Shown: positions 45,442 to 63,788 of the stretch, one piece after another | Position numbering within the stretch: the first letter of the stretch is position 1 | Layout of the letters: every line of letters starts with the position of its first letter | DNA from: Planctomycetota bacterium | Lineage (GTDB): Bacteria; Planctomycetota; Phycisphaerae; Sedimentisphaerales; Anaerohalosphaeraceae | Length of the DNA stretch: 64,000 nt | Assembly (NCBI GenBank): GCA_019456225.1 | Contig: VRUI01000005.1 | Span: forward strand, 1-64,000 | Direction of reading: 5' to 3' | Notes under the pieces: model-generated | The model's database searches: none | Told to the model about the DNA's origin: nothing | What the model saw: the letters and a program-made list of their open reading frames with translations, nothing else | Made by a program: the position numbers and the translations under genes

Positions 45442-45516
45442 CGGGGCGTGGCGCAGTTTGGCTAGCGCGCATGACTGGGGGTCATGAGGTCGGAGGTTCA
45501 AGTCCTCTCGCCCCGA
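45442..45516 (+). tRNA. tRNA-Pro (anticodon GGG)
   Basis: A complete cloverleaf of 75 nt. The acceptor stem is CGGGGCG with CGCCCCG; the D-arm is GCGC/GCGC; the anticodon stem CATGA/TCATG encloses the loop CTGGGGG with anticodon GGG; the T-arm is GGAGG-TTCAAGT-CCTCT. The discriminator base is A and no CCA is encoded. A terminator follows seven bases later. Integrative elements commonly insert at the 3' end of tRNA genes, and the gene content changes right after this one. Confidence 0.95.
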
Positions 45517-45522
45517 CTACTT

Positions 45523-46495: not shown

Positions 46496-47491
46496 ATGGC
46501 TAAAAAACCAACAAAGACAGGCCCAGACCTTTGGGAATATCTGGACAAGAACAACGTGAGTTTGCCATCTATTCCTTCAGATTTGCGCATCAAGGTAAGG
46601 GGGGGGAACCCTGACTTTCAGCGTGAATTTTATTTGCTACCTCAGACTCTTACGACCGTTACTAATGTACGCACAGAGAATTTATCCTCAGACGAAAAAG
46701 ATAGCCTTTTTTTACAGATCCAAAGAGAGACCCGCAAGGTTTTGGATCACGTTTGTAACGAAGTAAGTAAATTCGCCGGTGCCGATATTTCTGAAGGTTG
46801 CATGGCTATCCTAAACGACTATCAGACATGGTCTGAAAAGGTGTTACAGTGGGCTAAACAATCAATGTTTGGCCAGAGTATTGACACTGATACTTTTTAT
46901 GAACTTTGGCGTGAGCATTCCAATCTCCAGAGAAGGCGCATACTGGCTGGAACAATCAATAGTAAGTACCTAGAAAAAACAGTTGCTGAGTTAGAAGAAA
47001 AACTTTCAAACATCAAATCACAACGGTCAGCAGGAACAGGGCAGAAAAACCCCTCGAAACCAAATATAAAGACTTGGGATGAGTTGACAATAGAATTTAT
47101 TGATGACGGCACGATAAAATATAAAGGGGCAGATAGGCAATGGCATCGTGTAAACTATGCAGAACTTGGTTTTCAAGATAGACGCAATGGATTGCCCAAC
47201 CAGCTTTGGGGGATACTCCGTACACTAGCAGAACAAAACACCCTAATAGCGAAAGGACTTCCTACATCCAAACACAGTCTTCCTATGGATACACAAAAAA
47301 GCATTGACCGTATTCGTAAAACACTCCGCGCTTACTTTGACTTGCAGGATATACCCATAGTGTATAATCGAACAAAACACAGATATTGTTGCAAGTTTAC
47401 TCTTAGAGAAGCGCAAGAAGATTTAGAATTATATGCCAAAAGAAAACATGCCAGAGAAGCAACCAGCTATAAGCCAGACTTAGATGCCTAA
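46496..47491 (+). CDS. Hypothetical protein with possible winged-helix end
   Basis: A 331-residue protein not recognised as a family. The N-terminal 130 residues are mixed; about 150-195 is a helical charged linker with low-complexity SQRSAGTGQKNPSK. The C-terminal third (about 200-315) contains WHRVNYAELGF, LWGILRTLAEQNT, IDRIRKTLRAYF and a beta hairpin-like YNRTKHRYCCKF, an arrangement that fits a winged helix-turn-helix. It may be a regulator or replication initiator of the element; this is inference only. Confidence 0.6.
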   Translation: MAKKPTKTGPDLWEYLDKNNVSLPSIPSDLRIKVRGGNPDFQREFYLLPQTLTTVTNVRTENLSSDEKDSLFLQIQRETRKVLDHVCNEVSKFAGADISEGCMAILNDYQTWSEKVLQWAKQSMFGQSIDTDTFYELWREHSNLQRRRILAGTINSKYLEKTVAELEEKLSNIKSQRSAGTGQKNPSKPNIKTWDELTIEFIDDGTIKYKGADRQWHRVNYAELGFQDRRNGLPNQLWGILRTLAEQNTLIAKGLPTSKHSLPMDTQKSIDRIRKTLRAYFDLQDIPIVYNRTKHRYCCKFTLREAQEDLELYAKRKHAREATSYKPDLDA

Positions 47492-47780
47492 ATTGTAGAG
47501 CGGTTCTAAGATTCCACCCCCATATAGCCTCTAAAACGAAATCTCCTTTTCGTTATTATTAAAAATCCCCAAAAAAGTTCCATTTTTTTATCGTAAAACC
47601 TGTGTTTTTAGCCACTTAAACCATATTTTTCTCCGCCTCGTTAATTGACTGCCCTTTAGTCCCATCATGTTGCACGAAATATCGAAATTTCGCCATATAA
47701 GGGTGAGAGGGTAAAAAAGCTTGGGTGTTTTTTGTCCATGGCTGAAACTGTAATGACGGTTGTTTATAAAAGGAAATATT

Positions 47781-47981
47781 ATGGAAATCAAATCAACAAA
47801 GCAAGTTGCGGTCTTGATTGGGGTTAAACCGAACAAGCTACAGCGGGCGGTCTGGGAAGGTAGAATTTCAGAGCCGAAAAAAGGCCCCGGAAATAGTTTC
47901 TACTGGACGGAAGCTGATATAAACCGAGCCTCGAAGGCGTTACTTAACAAACCTTACAGGCCGGAGGCAACGGGGGATTGA
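47781..47981 (+). CDS. MerR/excisionase-like HTH protein
   Basis: A 66-residue DNA-binding protein: TKQVAVLIGVKPNKLQRAVWEGRI, then FYWTEADINRASKALL, the pattern of a small winged-helix excisionase or MerR-type domain. The ATG at 47781 has AAGGA in good position; a TTG at 47760 is less likely. Its stop overlaps the next gene by one base (TGATG). Confidence 0.75.
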   Translation: MEIKSTKQVAVLIGVKPNKLQRAVWEGRISEPKKGPGNSFYWTEADINRASKALLNKPYRPEATGD

Positions 47982-48199
47982 TGAAAGCTTCAATCAAACT
48001 TGAACCATTATTGATCTCTGCTGACGATGCCGCAAAAATGCTAGGCGTTTCTCGCTCATTCTTTTATGAAATGTTATCCTCGGGCAGGTGTCCTGTCCGT
48101 CCTGTCCAATTTTCTAAACGCCGACTCTGGCGCGTTGATTTACTAATGGCATGGGTTCAGTCAGGTTGCCGGGCAGATTGGAGGCCCAAAAATGAGTAA
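47981..48199 (+). CDS. Excisionase-family (AlpA/HTH_17) protein
   Basis: A 72-residue protein with ISADDAAKMLGVSRSFFYEM, the canonical helix-turn-helix of excisionase-like proteins, and a wing with RPVQFSKRRLWRVDLLMAWV. It may regulate excision or transcription of the element. The ATG at 47981 overlaps the previous stop; the end overlaps the following CsrA-like gene by 8 bases. Confidence 0.82.
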   Translation: MKASIKLEPLLISADDAAKMLGVSRSFFYEMLSSGRCPVRPVQFSKRRLWRVDLLMAWVQSGCRADWRPKNE

Positions 48200-48362
48200 G
48201 GGCGGCTTAGTTTTAGACACGAAGAGGAACGAAATGTTCCAGTTGCGTGACGCTGAGACAGGGACAATCACGACAATAAAAATATTTTATCGAGACAGCG
48301 GAAGCCTCGCAGTGCGATTTGAGGCCCCCAAGAATATACTAATTAGCAGGAAAAAAGAATAA
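48192..48362 (+). CDS. csrA: CsrA-like carbon storage regulator homologue
   Basis: A 56-residue protein, too short for usual length cut-offs. The pattern matches CsrA strand by strand: GGLVLDTKRNEMFQL for LVLTRK-GESI, a TGTITTIKIFYRDSG hairpin, and the diagnostic VRFEAPKNILISRKKE for IEAPKDVSVHREE. CsrA binds GGA motifs in mRNA leaders and controls translation. It overlaps the previous gene by 8 bases (ATGAGTAA) and is 23 bases before the DNA polymerase gene. A CsrA copy on an element suggests post-transcriptional control of its own genes or of the host. Confidence 0.72.
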   Translation: MSKGGLVLDTKRNEMFQLRDAETGTITTIKIFYRDSGSLAVRFEAPKNILISRKKE

Positions 48363-48385
48363 AAATCATACGATGGAGCGTTAAA

Positions 48386-49537
48386 GTGGTACAAAGATCA
48401 AAACAATATGATTATTCGGCCAACAAAAAACTTAATAATTATGTCCGACTAAAATATCAAAATCAGTTGTCAAATGGAGCTTTACACGTGTATCTACTTG
48501 CAATGCCATATTTAGAAGAAAAGCAATCTGGTTTTTGCCAGCAAGTTACGGCTAACTACGATGAACTCGGGCAAGCTACATGCAGAGATTATTCCGGGAT
48601 GAAGAATCCTCTCTTGGAATTGAAAGGTGTTCTTTGCGAAGTTGTGATCGGTAAACCGATTAAGGGCGGGAAAAAGGCAACAGTTATCCGTAGATATAAC
48701 CTTCAAGAACTTAAAGAGAAGAAATTACAATCCAAAATAATTGATAAGAGTCCGGCCCATGCACAGACGCTGGCAAAAATACTGGAGAGCCGTTCATTTA
48801 TTTATGGTGATAATCTCACATACAAACCATATTGGGACGCCAGCAAGACCGGCAGAGTAGTATCGCATAAGCCGAATGTTCAGGGAGACAGCAAGAATGA
48901 TAGGGCCGAAAGACTCCGCCATGGCTTGCTAAAAGGGCAATTTTTATTCGATCTCGATATAAAGCAGGCAGAGCCGTCAATAATTCAGCAAGTTTTGAAA
49001 TATAAATTCCCTTCAGACCCTTACCAAATGCTTGCTGACGTTAGCGAGTTTGACCGCAAAGAGGCCAAGCAAAAGATCAATATGCTGGCTTATGCGATAA
49101 GTGCGGTCAAAATAGTTCGATATTGGTCACTTGAAGCGCAAGAGATGTTTTTGCCTTATGCAAAGCAACTCGACAAATACAAAGCTAAATTATGGGAATC
49201 TTGGAAACCTAAAGGCAAGCAAAGACGGTTTATAGATACGCTTGGAGGTTCAAGGGTTTATGCAGATAGAGGGCAGCGAAACAACAAAGGCAAAATACTT
49301 AACTGGCATATACAGGGAACAGTAGCAGATATTATAAATACCGCCTCTCTTGAGATTATCCAGAGAGAACAAGCGGAGGGATGGAAGTTTCTTTTTCCGG
49401 AACATGACAGTATATACGTTGTTGGTAAAAACCAACACCAGGAAAAACTAAAACAAGTAATTATCAGTAAGGCGAAAGATTTAAACTTGGATTTATCGGT
49501 AGGTGTACAGTCATACGTTGTTGGAAAAACCCAATAA
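48386..49537 (+). CDS. Compact family A DNA polymerase
   Basis: A 383-residue protein with the palm and fingers motifs of DNA polymerase I: SKTGRVVSHKPNVQ (TGR then PN-Q, about 153-166), motif A DLDIKQAEPSII (Asp189/Asp191, Glu196), motif B R-x3-K-x7-Y as RKEAKQKINMLAY (Arg224, Lys228, Tyr236), and motif C PEHDSIYV (His340, Asp341). No 3'-5' or 5'-3' exonuclease is present; the first 130 residues are unlike either. It starts with GTG and has GGAG eight bases upstream. Element-encoded minimal polymerases of this kind may replicate the element itself. An RNase HI gene lies 770 bases downstream. Confidence 0.85.
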   Translation: MVQRSKQYDYSANKKLNNYVRLKYQNQLSNGALHVYLLAMPYLEEKQSGFCQQVTANYDELGQATCRDYSGMKNPLLELKGVLCEVVIGKPIKGGKKATVIRRYNLQELKEKKLQSKIIDKSPAHAQTLAKILESRSFIYGDNLTYKPYWDASKTGRVVSHKPNVQGDSKNDRAERLRHGLLKGQFLFDLDIKQAEPSIIQQVLKYKFPSDPYQMLADVSEFDRKEAKQKINMLAYAISAVKIVRYWSLEAQEMFLPYAKQLDKYKAKLWESWKPKGKQRRFIDTLGGSRVYADRGQRNNKGKILNWHIQGTVADIINTASLEIIQREQAEGWKFLFPEHDSIYVVGKNQHQEKLKQVIISKAKDLNLDLSVGVQSYVVGKTQ

Positions 49538-49621
49538 CAAAAACACTGGCTTACTGTTTGAAAAAACCAACCCTTATACCATGTATATATGTTGATGTGG
49601 TTTTTTATTTATGTGAGTGAA

Positions 49622-49690
49622 AACAAACGAACCGAAACGAACGAAAACGAAAACGAGTGAAAAAAAAAACGAAACGAAAAACGAAAACGA
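49622..49690. repeat. ACGAAA-rich repeat tract
   Basis: About ten copies of ACGAAA, ACGAAAA or CGAAAC within 70 bases, all purine-rich on one strand, with a 10-A run. It lies between the DNA polymerase and DUF3102 genes in an otherwise gene-free spacer. Confidence 0.7.
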
Positions 49691-49773
49691 ATTGTGTAGT
49701 TTTTTAGTTGAACAGCTTTTTAAAACAGGAAAACTGAAAATCTTAAAAATTAAAGTAAATAGTAAAAGTAAAA

Positions 49774-50307
49774 ATGAAAAAAAACGAAATTGAAAAAAAC
49801 CGGGTTAATGAAATTCTCACACTTCACAATGAAATTGCAGGCTATTTGAAAATGTCGGTTGAGAAGGCGGTTAAGATCGGGCGATTATTGCAGGAACAGA
49901 AATCCGCTTTACCGCATGGGGAGTTTGTTGGATGGATCGAATTAAATATGCCGTTCAGTGATAGGACAGCCAGGAACTATATGCGATTGCACGAAAACCG
50001 GGACAAACTGGAAACTGTTTCCGATTTGACCTCGGCATATAAGTTATTGTCCCCCTCTACGGAAGATTCGAAGGTAGAAGACTGGCATAGTTACGTACAG
50101 AGACAAAAGCGAGAGTTGCACTCAGAGATGGATAGTCTTGACGACATTCCCGACATCTACCAGAGATTGACCGCCTGTAAATTGATTTACGATAAACTTC
50201 TTTGGTTGACTCAGTCTTGCGCCGAGGTTTTGTTATACACTGAGGCTCGATTGGGACAGCTTTTGGACGAACAAACAATGACAAGTAAACTACAGGTGCA
50301 ACTATGA
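49774..50307 (+). CDS. DUF3102 family protein
   Basis: A 177-residue protein. The N-terminal half (about 5-95) is the DUF3102 region: AVKIGRLLQEQKSALPHGEF, GWIELNMPFSDRTARNYMR and a following helix. Such proteins are common on plasmids and phages and are thought to bind DNA. A second part (about 100-177) is helical. It overlaps the RNase H gene by 4 bases (ATGA), suggesting a joint replication or maintenance role. Confidence 0.75.
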   Translation: MKKNEIEKNRVNEILTLHNEIAGYLKMSVEKAVKIGRLLQEQKSALPHGEFVGWIELNMPFSDRTARNYMRLHENRDKLETVSDLTSAYKLLSPSTEDSKVEDWHSYVQRQKRELHSEMDSLDDIPDIYQRLTACKLIYDKLLWLTQSCAEVLLYTEARLGQLLDEQTMTSKLQVQL

Positions 50308-50708
50308 TAGAAGGATATTTTGACGGCGGTTGTTGGGAGAATCCGGGCGGACACGCTTCTTGCGGTTGTTATATTGTAGGCGATACCGGAATCTTACTTG
50401 AAGAAGGATACTACATCGGACATGGTGAAAGTATGTCGAACAATGTCGCAGAATATGAGGGCTTAATCCGAGTACTGGAATTTCTGCTAGATGAACACAA
50501 GGACAGCCCGATTGTCATTTTTGGTGACTCAATGTTAGTCATAAAACAAATGTCCGGTAGCTGGAAGATTAAAAAAGGATTTTATGCCAGTAGAGCAAGA
50601 CAGGCCAAGGAACTAGCTACCAAGTTTACAAGCATAACTTTCCGGTGGATTCCAAGAGACGAAAACACTATTTGCGATAAACTGGCAGAGGCAGCAATGC
50701 ACGGTTAA
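50304..50708 (+). CDS. rnhA: Ribonuclease HI-like protein
   Basis: A 134-residue RNase H. The four catalytic carboxylates are visible: Asp7 in YFDGGCWENPGG, Glu50 in NNVAEYEGL, Asp75 in FGDSMLVIKQ and Asp125 in ENTICDKLAE. It degrades RNA in RNA-DNA hybrids and would be needed to remove primers if the element's own polymerase lacks an exonuclease. Starts at an ATG overlapping the previous stop. Confidence 0.88.
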   Translation: MIEGYFDGGCWENPGGHASCGCYIVGDTGILLEEGYYIGHGESMSNNVAEYEGLIRVLEFLLDEHKDSPIVIFGDSMLVIKQMSGSWKIKKGFYASRARQAKELATKFTSITFRWIPRDENTICDKLAEAAMHG

Positions 50709-51073: not shown

Positions 51074-51547
51074 ATGGAAAGCTATGATACACAACCAATT
51101 ACCACGGCCTCAGATTTGGCACAATATATTATTAATTTTGCCAATCATACAGGTGAGTTGTTGACAAATTTAAAATTACAGAAACTTTTGTATTATGCAC
51201 AGGGATGGCATTTGGCCCACTATAATCATTTACTGTTCAGTGATAAAATTGAGGCTTGGGTTCATGGCCCTGTTGTACCACACCTTTATCATCTTTACAA
51301 AAATGGGTGGGCACCTATAAATAGCGAAATAAACCAACGGCCAAAGTATTTGTTAGGGGTTGATAAGTGGTTAGTAGGTTTTTTGCGAGAGTATATGCCA
51401 ATCGATGCTTTCGAGTTGGAACAAATGACTCACCTTGAAAAGCCTTGGTTGGAAGCAAGAGGCGGAATCCCAGAAGATGAGATTTGTTCTAAAGCAATAG
51501 ACCCAGAAACCATGAAGAAGTATTTTGTGAGTCTTTTAAATGCCTAA
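51074..51547 (+). CDS. Panacea-domain (DUF4065/SocA-type) antitoxin, module 1
   Basis: A 157-residue protein with the Panacea pattern: ASDLAQYIINFANHTGELLTN, KLQKLLYYAQGWHLAHYN, EAWVHGPVVPHLYHLYK and a C-terminal helix. Panacea domains are chaperone-like antitoxin parts that neutralise diverse toxins encoded next to them. A GGAG site precedes the ATG. The end overlaps the next gene by 8 bases, which supports a toxin-antitoxin pair. Confidence 0.85.
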   Translation: MESYDTQPITTASDLAQYIINFANHTGELLTNLKLQKLLYYAQGWHLAHYNHLLFSDKIEAWVHGPVVPHLYHLYKNGWAPINSEINQRPKYLLGVDKWLVGFLREYMPIDAFELEQMTHLEKPWLEARGGIPEDEICSKAIDPETMKKYFVSLLNA

Positions 51548-52114: not shown

Positions 52115-52801
52115 CTACTTTGACCACCCTTGTCTAGTGATGATTCGCTTAACTACAACGCCAGACCACTTTTTCCCCGTACGAGTTGCAAGGCCCTCTT
52201 TATTCAAGATATTGGCTATTTCATAGCAACCAAGGCGAACACCGCCCCGAGGCTTTCGATTAAGCTGCTTGATACGTTCGAGAATAGGCTTTTCGCTGTC
52301 ATGGTATCCGTAGGGCTTGCGACCTTCACAACGGCCTGTTTTGGCTTTCTTTGCCTGTCTTGCTTTTTTCAACTTCAACACCAGCATAGACTTGTCAAGC
52401 TCAGCAAACGCGCCCTGGACCTGTAACATCATTTTATTCATAGGGTCTGAATTATAGGATTCAGTAACATTAAAACCGGTATCAGCACTTATTAAAGTCA
52501 GCTTTTTAGTGCATAGCATACTTACTAATTGCATTTGCACCATTAAGTCACGCGCTAACCTGTCTAATCGTTCAATGATAATCACACGAATACCATTACT
52601 AAGCAATTCAGCTAACATCAAAAGAAATTCAGGCCTGTCGGCATCGGTACCAGTAAACGCTTCTTTGTAAACGATAGTAATCTCATAGTCATTTTTATTA
52701 GCGAATTCTGTTATAGTTTGCTCTTGACGCTCCAGACCAGTACCATCTTTTTGTTGACCCTTAGAGCTTACTCTTGTATATCCTACGGCTTTAATTTTCA
52801 T
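52115..52801 (-). CDS. Serine recombinase (resolvase/invertase family)
   Basis: A 228-residue recombinase. The catalytic Ser12 is in GYTRVSSKGQ; further family blocks are YKEAFTGTDADRPEFLLML, VIIIERLDRLARDL and QVQGAFAELDKSM. A short C-terminal DNA-binding part ends GKKWSGVVVKRIITR. At 228 residues it is a small resolvase, not a large serine integrase, so it may resolve multimers or mediate site-specific inversion. It overlaps the AAA+ gene stop by one base and is the last gene of a three-gene operon. Confidence 0.88.
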   Translation of the reverse strand: MKIKAVGYTRVSSKGQQKDGTGLERQEQTITEFANKNDYEITIVYKEAFTGTDADRPEFLLMLAELLSNGIRVIIIERLDRLARDLMVQMQLVSMLCTKKLTLISADTGFNVTESYNSDPMNKMMLQVQGAFAELDKSMLVLKLKKARQAKKAKTGRCEGRKPYGYHDSEKPILERIKQLNRKPRGGVRLGCYEIANILNKEGLATRTGKKWSGVVVKRIITRQGWSK

Positions 52802-53448
52802 TATTCTGTTTCCTTAAGCATATAACCGCTTTCTATTTCCTGTAGCATCATTCTACAATTATTCTTGCACTTTTGCGCTAGTTTAATATAGCTTTGCAGG
52901 GGCTTTCCGTCTAATGATTCAGACCTTGCAATATTCTGGCAATGTTGCGCGAAGGCTTTCGCTAATCCCTGATTAGTCAGTTGAATATCAATGCAGCGCG
53001 ATAACAATGGGCTTGCGTCTATACAGTCATCAAATAGGCTTTCTTGCCCCTGTTTAGTCGTTGTAAAGACAAACACTATATAATCAGGCAATCGCTCTAA
53101 AATCCCTAACAGACGCCGTATAGACGCCTTGCGAAGTCCATGCGCTTCATTGATAATATAAGCCTTGCCAGAACCAAAGCCCCTGTACTGCATATCCTTT
53201 TCGACCTTATCAAGTGCCGAAACGGTTAACAGATCAGCGCAATCATATTCAGTAATATATAAATCGTCTGCAATGCTCTTGCCAATTATCCGGGCAAGTG
53301 TTGTTTTACCTGAACCGCTTATACCGCTAATCCAATAAGCCCGGCCCCCCAAACCGGATTTATTGAATCGCTGGATAGTTTTAACTGCCTTGTCTTGACC
53401 GATAACTTGATCAAGTGTTTTGGGTCTGAACTTTTCGCATAGCTGCAT
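52801..53448 (-). CDS. Clamp-loader-like AAA+ ATPase
   Basis: A 215-residue AAA+ protein that starts CEKFRPKTLDQVIGQ, the typical opening of DnaX/RFC-type proteins. Walker A is GISGSGKTT (42-50). Walker B reads KAYIINEAHGL, with Asn in place of the usual first Asp (residue 100) before Glu101. No collar domain is present, so it resembles a minimal clamp-loader or RuvB/Holliday-type small AAA+. It lies between ArdC (1-bp gap) and the recombinase. Confidence 0.78.
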   Translation of the reverse strand: MQLCEKFRPKTLDQVIGQDKAVKTIQRFNKSGLGGRAYWISGISGSGKTTLARIIGKSIADDLYITEYDCADLLTVSALDKVEKDMQYRGFGSGKAYIINEAHGLRKASIRRLLGILERLPDYIVFVFTTTKQGQESLFDDCIDASPLLSRCIDIQLTNQGLAKAFAQHCQNIARSESLDGKPLQSYIKLAQKCKNNCRMMLQEIESGYMLKETE

Positions 53449-53449
53449 A

Positions 53450-54352
53450 TTACACCCCCCTTATAAAATCGGCGGCTTTTTGACCAGCACTGGCAGCCTG
53501 AACAACAAGTTTACGGTCTTTCTTAATAGCCTTGGACCAACTGTCGATATATGCTGAACTATTTTCGATTGTAGCTGATTCAATTCCAGCAATCCCGCAA
53601 AGCATACAGGAACTGAACTCAGCAATTAACTCTTCTTTTCCATAGTTAACACTGCCGAAAGCTGCTACGGCTTTTTCCTGCCGATTGAGCCTTGAACTAT
53701 GGCCGGTGCTGTGTGATAACTCATGGAATAAGACGCTATAATAAAAAGATTCACTTTCAAACTTTGTCTTATTCGGCATATTTACAATATCTGCCGAAGG
53801 CCTGTAATACGCCTGAGGATCGCCGCTATGAGTAATCGCTGGTCGATTCGGCATATTATGTACAATTTGCTCACAAGCTGCAATAGGCTCAAAATCAAGC
53901 TCTGTTTCGTCAATCTCAGGCATAGCATCAACAGGTAGTTTGTCAGGGTCAAGATTATCACACTGGTCAAGATTGAAAACCCTGTAATATCTCATAATAA
54001 AAAACTCATCTTTTTCAATAGTGCCTGAATCGCTTACTTTTTTCTTTTCCAGCTTTTTCCAAAATACCGCAACAGTGCTCTTTTCACCTTTTCTAACCTG
54101 ACCGCCAAGGTCTTGCGCCTTCTTGTATGTAACCCAATAGCAGCTTTCAAATCCTGCTGCTTGTGCTGACATACTCAATAGCCAAACATTAATACCATTA
54201 TAAGGCTTTCGGGTTGATAATGATTTTGGTCTACCTGCTGAACCGCCGCGCCAAGGCTTGCGCCAAGGTACGGTTCCTTCGTCCAGTGCTTTTAAGATTT
54301 GATCTGTAACAATTTGGTAGACATCCGGCTTGTTTCCTGATACTTTACGCAT
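53450..54352 (-). CDS. ArdC-family antirestriction/zincin protein
   Basis: A 300-residue protein with an ssDNA-binding N-terminal domain (YQIVTDQILKALDEGTVPWRK, YNGINVWLLSMS, VRKGEKSTVAVFW) and a C-terminal zincin-like metallopeptidase domain with the HELSH zinc motif plus AFGSVNYGKEELIAEF. ArdC proteins protect incoming DNA from restriction and are typical of plasmids. The ATG at 54352 has AGGAG eight bases upstream; a longer reading to 54427 is not needed. First gene of the ArdC-AAA-recombinase operon. Confidence 0.88.
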   Translation of the reverse strand: MRKVSGNKPDVYQIVTDQILKALDEGTVPWRKPWRGGSAGRPKSLSTRKPYNGINVWLLSMSAQAAGFESCYWVTYKKAQDLGGQVRKGEKSTVAVFWKKLEKKKVSDSGTIEKDEFFIMRYYRVFNLDQCDNLDPDKLPVDAMPEIDETELDFEPIAACEQIVHNMPNRPAITHSGDPQAYYRPSADIVNMPNKTKFESESFYYSVLFHELSHSTGHSSRLNRQEKAVAAFGSVNYGKEELIAEFSSCMLCGIAGIESATIENSSAYIDSWSKAIKKDRKLVVQAASAGQKAADFIRGV

Positions 54353-54427
54353 AATCGAAACTCCTAAACAGTTTTGATTCACGGTCGGGGATACTTTGCG
54401 GGTATCGCCCGGCCAATATCTTGTCAA

Positions 54428-57471: not shown

Positions 57472-57786
57472 CTAGTTTTCCCCTGTAGGTTTCTCCAATA
57501 CGAACATCATAACAATAAACAGTATCGCACAAACCACATCTATTGGCTGCCATATCTCACGTGACAGATGTATTGGAATTAGAGGATTAAACAGTAGAGC
57601 GATAAAACCAAACAACCATACGCCCCACATCTTCTGCCAACTATAAGCCGTAACAGCTATGTAAACGCTGACACCACAGACAACAAGCCTGAGCAGCTGA
57701 TAATAGCCGTAAGGCAAGTCTGCTAAAGCTAAGAGCAACATCGCCGCTGCAATTAAAGATGGGATCAAGTGTGGCCTTTTGTTCAT
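57472..57786 (-). CDS. Small membrane protein (DUF6804-like)
   Basis: A 104-residue protein with three to four transmembrane helices, starting MNKRPHLIPSLIAAAMLLLA. CGGAGATTTTAATT precedes the ATG. The gene at 61943 shares the MNKR start and a similar GGAGATTT leader, so the two may be distant paralogues. Function unknown. Confidence 0.6.
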   Translation of the reverse strand: MNKRPHLIPSLIAAAMLLLALADLPYGYYQLLRLVVCGVSVYIAVTAYSWQKMWGVWLFGFIALLFNPLIPIHLSREIWQPIDVVCAILFIVMMFVLEKPTGEN

Positions 57787-57817
57787 AATTAAAATCTCCG
57801 TATTTTGTCGATAATTT

Positions 57818-58798
57818 CTAAGGCCATTTCTTTTCCCTAACCGGTCTTCCATATTGATCCATGTGAACACCCATGCCGTATCCGTCGGTTTTGATTTCTA
57901 AGCGTTCTCCGTAAACACCGCCGAAGTCTGGTTTTAGTATTACTGGTTGGCCAAAACGATTTATATGGACACCCATGCCGTAGCCATCAGGCTGAATAAC
58001 AGAATTGTTACCGCTGCTAATAGTATTATGTCTGGATGAGTCATTTATTTCTATTGACCTTTTTTTAAGCTCATTCTGAGCCACAGCAACTCCCTGCTCA
58101 GCAGCTTTCCTGTACCACTTGACAGCCTCCTTGTAATCCTGCGTAACGCCGTGACGTTTACGATACACCACCCCCAGCCACCGCTGAGCATCAGCATACC
58201 CCTGCTCTGCGGCTTTGGTGTACCATTTGACCGCCTCCTTGTCGTCTTTTTCAACGCCATAACCGTTGCCATACATCACGCCAAGATTGAACTGAGCCTC
58301 AGCAACTCCCTGCTCAGCTGCTTTTCCTAACCATTTGACGGCCTTTTTGTCGTCTTTGGCAACGCCATCACCTATATAATACACCACCCACAGACGCCAC
58401 TGTGCATCGACATGTCCCTGCTCTGCGGCTTTTCCTAACCATTTGATAGCTTGCTTGTAATCTTTTTCAACACCATCGCCGATGTAATACATTTGTCCAA
58501 GATTGAACTGAGCCTCAGCAACTCCCTGCTCAGCTGCTTTTGTGTACCACTTGATAGCTTGCTTGTGATCTAGGGTAACACCGTTACCGTCATCATACAT
58601 TTGTGCAAGATTAAGCTGTGCTGTTGCATCGCCTTCTTCAGCTTGTTTGAGCATCTTTTCAAAAGTGGCCTCATCACTGACAGGTAAATCGGAGGTACGT
58701 AACGAGTCTAATATTGGCGTAGCGGATTCTTTACTACAGCCACAACAGAACAGCAAGGCTAATAGAATTACCACCACCACAAGACTTGACGTTCTCAT
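57818..58798 (-). CDS. Sel1-repeat lipoprotein
   Basis: A 326-residue lipoprotein: signal peptide with CCGC lipobox (Cys at about 22), then seven Sel1-like tetratricopeptide repeats of 36 residues such as AIKWYTKAAEQGVAEAQFNL and AVKWLGKAAEQG. A C-terminal section repeats KTDGYGMGVHMDQYGRPV twice. Sel1 proteins are scaffolds for protein interaction. The ATG at 58798 starts the signal peptide; an upstream extension to 58849 is not supported. Confidence 0.85.
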   Translation of the reverse strand: MRTSSLVVVVILLALLFCCGCSKESATPILDSLRTSDLPVSDEATFEKMLKQAEEGDATAQLNLAQMYDDGNGVTLDHKQAIKWYTKAAEQGVAEAQFNLGQMYYIGDGVEKDYKQAIKWLGKAAEQGHVDAQWRLWVVYYIGDGVAKDDKKAVKWLGKAAEQGVAEAQFNLGVMYGNGYGVEKDDKEAVKWYTKAAEQGYADAQRWLGVVYRKRHGVTQDYKEAVKWYRKAAEQGVAVAQNELKKRSIEINDSSRHNTISSGNNSVIQPDGYGMGVHINRFGQPVILKPDFGGVYGERLEIKTDGYGMGVHMDQYGRPVREKKWP

Positions 58799-60856: not shown

Positions 60857-61420
60857 ATGCGTGCTCCCTGTAACAATTCAAACCCTTTTTCTTTTGACCT
60901 AGAAAAGGCTATTCAAGCAGTTGCGTTTTTGTTAAAACAAAAACCTCAAACAAACTGCTCTGATAATTACATGCGCATTTTAAAATTATTATATTTTGCG
61001 GACAGGGAAAGCATAAAAGAAACAGGAACACCTATAACTGGTGATCGATTTGTTGCACTCAAATACGGGCCAACTCTTAGCCGTTTATTGAATCTTGTAC
61101 GTCAAGAAGCGCCGGGTGGTATTGAATGGGATAAGTTTATTCAAAAAGTTGGATATGATATTAGGCTTATCAATGACCCTGGTAATGGAAAATTATGCAA
61201 ATATGAAATTGAATTACTGAGAAAGATTTGGAACGAAAACCGAGACTTAGGGGAATGGGATGTCGCAACGAAATCAGAAACCTTTCAAGAGTTTATAAAA
61301 AATAACCCCGGAGATTCCCAAAAACCAATTCCATTGACTGATTTGTTAGAGGCCGTTGGCAGAAGCGATTGGCTTCAAGGAATCATTCAAGCTTCGACGG
61401 AAAGTTGCTCTCCAATATAA
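60857..61420 (+). CDS. Panacea-domain (DUF4065-type) antitoxin, module 2
   Basis: A 187-residue protein with DLEKAIQAVAFLLKQK, MRILKLLYFADRESIKETG, GDRFVALKYGPTLSRLLNL and a C-terminal helix, the Panacea layout. AAAGGA precedes the ATG. A toxin-like gene follows 20 bases later. It is only distantly similar to the antitoxin of module 1. Confidence 0.83.
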   Translation: MRAPCNNSNPFSFDLEKAIQAVAFLLKQKPQTNCSDNYMRILKLLYFADRESIKETGTPITGDRFVALKYGPTLSRLLNLVRQEAPGGIEWDKFIQKVGYDIRLINDPGNGKLCKYEIELLRKIWNENRDLGEWDVATKSETFQEFIKNNPGDSQKPIPLTDLLEAVGRSDWLQGIIQASTESCSPI

Positions 61421-63609: not shown

Positions 63610-63788
63610 AAAGGGATCACCGCCCCGGCGACGTTAAACCATAACGCCACAAAGCCGAGACGGCAACCTGTTGTGTCCTAAGCAATCCCTTTAATAGTTG
63701 TCTAAAGGGATCACCGCCCCGGCGACGTTAAACCTGTAACGCCACAAAGCCGAGACGGTAACATGTTGTATCCTATTTTGATCCCTTT
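63610..63788 (+). repeat. Two tandem cloverleaf-like elements B and C
   Basis: Copy B (63610-63692) and copy C (63704-63788) are about 85% identical with a 94-base period. Each is closed by AAAGGGAT(CA)/(TG)ATCCCTTT arms and has inner stems CGTTA/TAACG and GCCG-AGA-CGGC (CGGT in copy C, preserving pairing as G-U). The conservation of pairing suggests a functional RNA or single-stranded DNA structure. Confidence 0.7.

Follow-up and report, generated by a model that had tools for sequence, protein, structure and literature searches.

The open reading frame at positions 48386-49537 (forward strand) of the window, by which we mean the whole stretch of 64,000 nucleotides that was analysed, is confirmed from its sequence to encode a real family A DNA polymerase without an exonuclease. 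With somewhat better than even confidence, we take this protein to be the own replication enzyme of a tRNA-integrated element that carries defence genes. This reading is supported by the catalytic residues of the protein, the lack of an exonuclease, the att repeats and integrase of the element, and the conserved place of the polymerase gene behind an AlpA-like HTH gene at three loci.

The reading frame, for which the earlier note gave the same coordinates, begins with GTG, encodes 383 amino acids, and is preceded by a GGAG ribosome-binding-like site at about position 48374. The protein was found to match the Pfam family DNA_pol_A (PF00476) over residues 217-372 with 45.4 bits (E 6.9e-12; curated cut-off, 34.3 bits), and it also has the catalytic Asp pair, the RxxxK motif and the hairpin Arg of that family. 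In a profile comparison against 14 ordinary PolA sequences, residues 151-383 were aligned (E 3.5e-11) with the part of PolA that begins shortly ahead of the TGR motif and continues to the C-terminus, at ~23% identity to cellular PolA over the aligned part. The palm and fingers, with their catalytic residues and Pfam match, are like those of cellular PolA, whereas the protein lacks a 5' or 3' exonuclease and its N-terminal 150 residues gave no alignment to the PolA thumb in the same comparison. No exonuclease domain was detected in the polymerase in Pfam and NCBIfam scans, and no separate exonuclease gene was detected among the element proteins scanned. The earlier description of an exonuclease-less family A polymerase of 383 residues is upheld by these results.

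A second polymerase is encoded in the same genome, and the residues common to both copies are T155-G156-R157, D191, D211, R224/K228 (RxxxK), Y236, Q310-G-T, and H340-D341. R157 corresponds to the template-strand hairpin Arg, and D191 and D341 are the metal ligands. Residue E196 is changed to Asp in the second copy. The HDE Glu is replaced by Ser in the window polymerase and by Gly in the second copy, and Asn is found in both at the position of F762 in E. coli Pol I when the sequences are aligned by eye. The earlier claim that all polymerase motifs are present is correct for the key palm and fingers residues but fails at the HDE Glu and the F762 position; these two changes, as read from the sequence, could lower the activity of the polymerase.

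The second mini-polymerase (contig C136) is 56% identical to the first and is located just downstream of a tRNA-Lys gene. The identities of the two genes at the first, second, and third codon positions are 65, 78, and 38%, with a dN of 0.36 and a saturated dS, from which both copies appear to be under purifying selection. The existence of a copy that is 56% identical, with 78% identity at second positions versus 38% at third positions, makes the reading frame real far beyond chance. The host PolA is a separate 939-aa frame on contig C11. A third, partial homologue, 26-27% identical over the N-terminal half, was found in a genome of the same phylum (G171) that lies outside the 397 genomes of the window's class. 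It has HTH_17 and tyrosine integrase genes upstream on the same strand and a tRNA-Leu nearby. All three homologues therefore occur in HTH, integrase, or tRNA contexts, which bears out the mobile-element setting proposed earlier and argues against such polymerases never being found on mobile elements. A tblastx comparison of the window element and the second element identified only two clearly shared genes, that of the polymerase and that of the AlpA-like HTH protein. Directly after the second polymerase (L006, 3501-4112) is a gene for a 203-aa DnaD-like protein (PHROG helicase-loader match, E 3e-5), in the place that is taken by a repeat array in the window.

A search of the genomes of relatives, of the same class and phylum, and of the class of a Blastopirellula genome returned the two copies of this genome and the G171 homologue only. 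Three weak matches in the Blastopirellula-class set were set aside as frames of over 1000 aa, and the tblastn matches in phages and plasmids were to ordinary polA genes, whole or fragmentary. No relative was detected in viral contigs, using protein and profile queries, a DNA pattern, and a few strict peptide patterns, or in pattern scans of genome contigs, where 8 matches were attributed to chance; since the peptide patterns were few and strict, absence from the contig scans is weak evidence. A 321-aa phage polymerase profile applied to 200 Bacilli returned mainly long PolA frames, and the two short ones that were examined proved to be split phage-type genes. In these Bacilli (L036 and L051) the N- and C-terminal parts of a phage-type PolA are found in separate ORFs, in one case with a small ORF between them. 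The mini-polymerase of the window type is rare in every collection searched.

The positions of attL and attR give an element of ~35.0 kb that runs past the end of the window. Its features are given below in window coordinates, and those beyond the window are given on the window's contig (C113).

45442..45517, forward strand: intact tRNA-Pro (GGG) gene at the left end, the integration target (ARAGORN, Rfam)
45473..45518, no strand: attL, a 46-bp perfect direct repeat of the 3' part of the tRNA-Pro gene (exact repeat search)
46496..47491, forward strand: ORF of 331 aa before the HTH pair, with no Pfam, PHROG, or NCBIfam match
47760..47981, forward strand: small HTH_17 (excisionase-like) protein (Pfam 22.4 bits, below the cut-off)
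47978..48199, forward strand: HTH_17/AlpA-like excisionase-regulator (Pfam 34.2 bits)
48192..48362, forward strand: 56-aa ORF immediately upstream of the polymerase (with an insignificant CsrA-like pattern)
48386..48775, forward strand: N-terminal domain (residues 1-130) of the polymerase, with a probable winged helix-turn-helix spanning residues ~30-105
49621..49691, no strand: AACGAA repeat array just 3' of the polymerase gene, a candidate origin or iteron-like site
49774..50307, forward strand: DUF3102 protein, overlapping the RNase HI gene (Pfam 46 bits)
50304..50708, forward strand: RNase HI (RVT_3 61 bits)
52115..52801, reverse strand: serine recombinase of the resolvase type (Pfam Resolvase 102 bits)
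52801..53448, reverse strand: clamp-loader-like AAA+ protein (PHROG clamp loader 112 bits; DNA_pol3_delta2 28 bits)
53450..54427, reverse strand: ArdC-type anti-restriction protein (Pfam ArdcN 130 bits, MPTase-PolyVal 119 bits)
C113:78951-80153: tyrosine integrase adjoining attR (Phage_integrase 72.5 bits)
C113:80487-80532: attR, beyond the window (exact repeat search)

Direct repeats derived from a tRNA gene and an integrase at one end identify this region as a tRNA-integrated element, and its GC content is 40.9% versus 46.3 and 46.5% in the flanks. A counterpart of the AlpA-like HTH gene is found upstream of the polymerase at all three loci (window, L006, and G171). At the second polymerase, the position of the 56-aa ORF of the window is occupied by a 71-aa ORF that overlaps the start of the polymerase by 47 bp. 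An identity of the 56-aa ORF with CsrA was considered and was not established, there being no significant relation. Beyond the window, the element encodes a type I restriction system (HsdM, HsdS, and HsdR; C113:66742-73775, L030), a PrrC-like protein between HsdM and HsdS (PADLOC PrrC, 321 bits), and a TIR-domain protein beside this system. No match to a capsid, terminase, relaxase, secretion, D5, DUF927, DnaB, or primase protein was obtained in the Pfam scans of the element, which covered all but a few short ORFs, and the autonomous module postulated in the earlier note is in this respect unproven. Scans for promoters and terminators performed no better than on shuffled sequences. The element also contains two near-identical DUF6804-type membrane protein genes (window 57472-57870 and C113:75913-76251), two SocA/Panacea-domain antitoxin-like genes (51074-51547 and 60857-61420), each followed by a small ORF, and nearly perfect direct repeats of 31 and 39 bp with a spacing of 94-95 bp (window 63610-63775).

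The N-terminal ~130 residues of the polymerase had been described as having no known domain and had been suggested as the specificity or priming part. No Pfam domain of note was found in this region among matches up to E 10, and the ~130 residues are kept in all three homologues, with 26% identity to the G171 copy. An AlphaFold model of residues 1-146 made with three sequences consists of helices at 30-47, 58-64, and 69-78 and strands at 82-92 and 96-105, and this order, with a beta wing after three helices, is that of a winged helix, although the mean pLDDT is 45 and confidence in the model is low. The first rows of a Foldseek search with this model were mostly winged-helix proteins (MarR type and the DnaD N-domain) at insignificant E values of 0.13 or higher, and the VIA-align list was mixed, with an insignificant best Z of 3.6. 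Among the top structural matches, all of them insignificant, is an entry titled 'Structure of initiator'. The full-length polymerase modeled with two sequences gave a pLDDT of 33. The structure prediction called for earlier has therefore delivered the winged-helix order but neither a confident model nor a significant fold match. On this model the N-terminal region is likely to be a winged helix. As the part that confers DNA specificity it is a strong candidate, in line with the earlier suggestion. Plasmid and phage initiators of the RepA/DnaD type resemble the window polymerase in the order of elements in this low-confidence N-terminal model and in having an adjoining repeat array; the family A polymerase domain that follows the N-terminal domain sets the window polymerase apart from them.

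The gap between the polymerase and DUF3102 genes contains 8 copies of AACGAA, compared with a mean of 1.2 and a maximum of 5 in shuffled sequences. The shorter ACGAA occurs 8 times in an 80-bp stretch, versus 3 times at the next-densest spot of the 106-kb contig. We infer from these counts that the array is a candidate site for the origin. No such array was detected in the second element; ahead of its HTH gene there is instead a short repeat of 20 bp (L006, 5958-6003).

If the polymerase is indeed the replication enzyme of the element, the integrase and the HTH protein would excise the element as a circle, and the N-terminal winged helix would bind specific DNA, for which the AACGAA array is the candidate, and so place the polymerase domain there. 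The polymerase would then make or extend a short DNA start, and host enzymes would complete replication. Several points weigh against the replication reading. The element proteins scanned yielded no helicase or primase, in contrast to CcPol and many TV-Pols; the array is missing in the second element; the winged-helix model is of low confidence; and the changes at the HDE Glu and the F762 position could make the polymerase less active.

CcPol is a family A enzyme of SCCmec that consists of the polymerase domain only and has a proposed origin nearby (PMC7581432). This exonuclease-less protein is encoded on an integrated island and primes DNA when joined by the small partner MP (PMC7581432, PMC10061031). 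CcPol is the best functional model for the window polymerase, which we take, with moderate confidence, to work like it or like the TV-Pols. The CcPol-MP systems of SCCmec and Bacillota islands share with the window a polymerase of similar length, an integrated element, a small neighbouring ORF, a separate host PolA, and restriction cargo. They differ in that Pfam scans gave no COG3378/DUF927 helicase beside the window polymerase or elsewhere among the scanned proteins of the element, in the recombinase (a tyrosine integrase at a tRNA here, a large serine recombinase there), and in the N-terminal region (probably a winged helix here, an exonuclease remnant there). The TV-Pols form a broader group in which the same minimal motifs occur; they are linked to integrases and resolvases (PMC2579912). 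Like TV-Pols, the window polymerase lacks an exonuclease, belongs to a mobile element, and has the corresponding residues (R157, D191, D341, D211, and R224xxxK228), and its element likewise contains integrase and resolvase genes. In contrast to many TV-Pols, no D5 helicase was found among the scanned proteins of the element, and the N-terminal domain of the window polymerase, likely a winged helix, may differ from the all-helical one described for TV-Pols. The sequence comparison was made with one candidate TV-Pol, MAP_030 of Microcystis phage LMM01, chosen from motifs and neighbours; it is not matched by Pfam DNA_pol_A and is not similar in sequence to the window polymerase, which keeps more of the PolA signature (TGR...PNVQ, QGT).

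A rather unlikely alternative is that the protein is a primase-polymerase of the PolA-SSB kind that starts DNA de novo, with the small upstream ORF as the counterpart of MP. The window polymerase shares with PolA-SSB primases a polymerase domain that lacks a full exonuclease and a location on a mobile element, and both copies of the gene have a small ORF overlapping the start or just ahead of it. By eye, the distance from the TGR Arg to the motif A Glu is 3 residues shorter than in E. coli Pol I, whose numbering we take from general knowledge, and this shortened stretch is the region of the shortened helix of CcPol. The length of 383 aa is also close to that of CcPol, estimated from residue numbers as about 390 (PMC7581432). 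However, the scans of the element proteins gave no helicase, the small ORF is upstream rather than downstream of the polymerase and shows no significant relation to CsrA, and the F762 residue kept in CcPol (PMC7581432) is Asn in the window polymerase. Because it has no helicase neighbour, the window polymerase was not assigned to the PolA-SSB primases, the comparison with CcPol being one of descriptions and not of sequences. Primer-independent priming as by SCCmec CcPol with MP is, by analogy, possible, at well short of even confidence.

It is quite improbable that the protein is a repair or defence polymerase carried as non-replicative cargo among the type I restriction, PrrC-like, and TIR genes. 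The defence genes of the element and the lack of an accompanying helicase would fit such a role, but the polymerase gene belongs to the conserved HTH block close to the att end and is outside the cargo; the polymerase has no PADLOC match and is conserved together with the HTH gene across different elements.

The RNase HI gene that follows the polymerase was also considered. Its residues D7/E50/D75/D125 are present by eye, and its scores against the NCBIfam ribonuclease HI models reach 102 bits, below their cut-offs. The earlier placement of this gene in the same cluster is loosely true: the ORF is real and on the same strand, but an A-rich gap of 236 bp separates the DUF3102-RNase HI pair from the polymerase. 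Neither RNase HI nor DUF3102 is found beside the second polymerase, and the genome's other DUF3102 gene, located at one end of contig C124, is not accompanied by a polymerase within the next 8 kb. The expected co-occurrence of the three genes was thus not borne out, and a conserved polymerase-RNase HI unit is disfavoured, as judged from two elements only. One other RNase HI of the RVT_3 type is present in the genome (C98), and since the host has this enzyme and a full PolA, the element would not be needed for the removal of primers; an enzyme that primes like CcPol-MP would make DNA primers and would not need an RNase H. The proposed division of labour, in which RNase HI removes RNA primers within one replication module, is therefore very improbable: both genes are found on one strand inside 2.4 kb, with the RNase HI residues in place, but the pair is missing beside the second polymerase, the only clearly shared genes are the polymerase and the HTH gene, and the gap and the host RNase HI stand against it. 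Most likely the RNase HI is a separate gene of the DUF3102 pair, and it looks like a bystander of the polymerase. A relative of the DUF3102 protein is Orf4 in the 5.26-kb record of Leptospira phage LE1 (AF261714; E 1e-6).

The preferred reading remains that of a replication enzyme belonging to the element. A more specific and doubtful proposal is a one-chain initiator-polymerase, in which an origin-binding winged helix would be joined to a minimal family A polymerase, with no dedicated helicase or separate primase; no earlier description of this architecture was found. If the N-terminal domain targets the origin, then origin recognition and family A synthesis would be combined in one chain of 383 residues, and this, if true, would go beyond the PolA-SSB primases reported from Bacillota. 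The two diverged copies at different tRNA genes of one genome are natural replicates for tests, and the polymerase bears on the question of how a PolA-type enzyme may start DNA synthesis without a primer.
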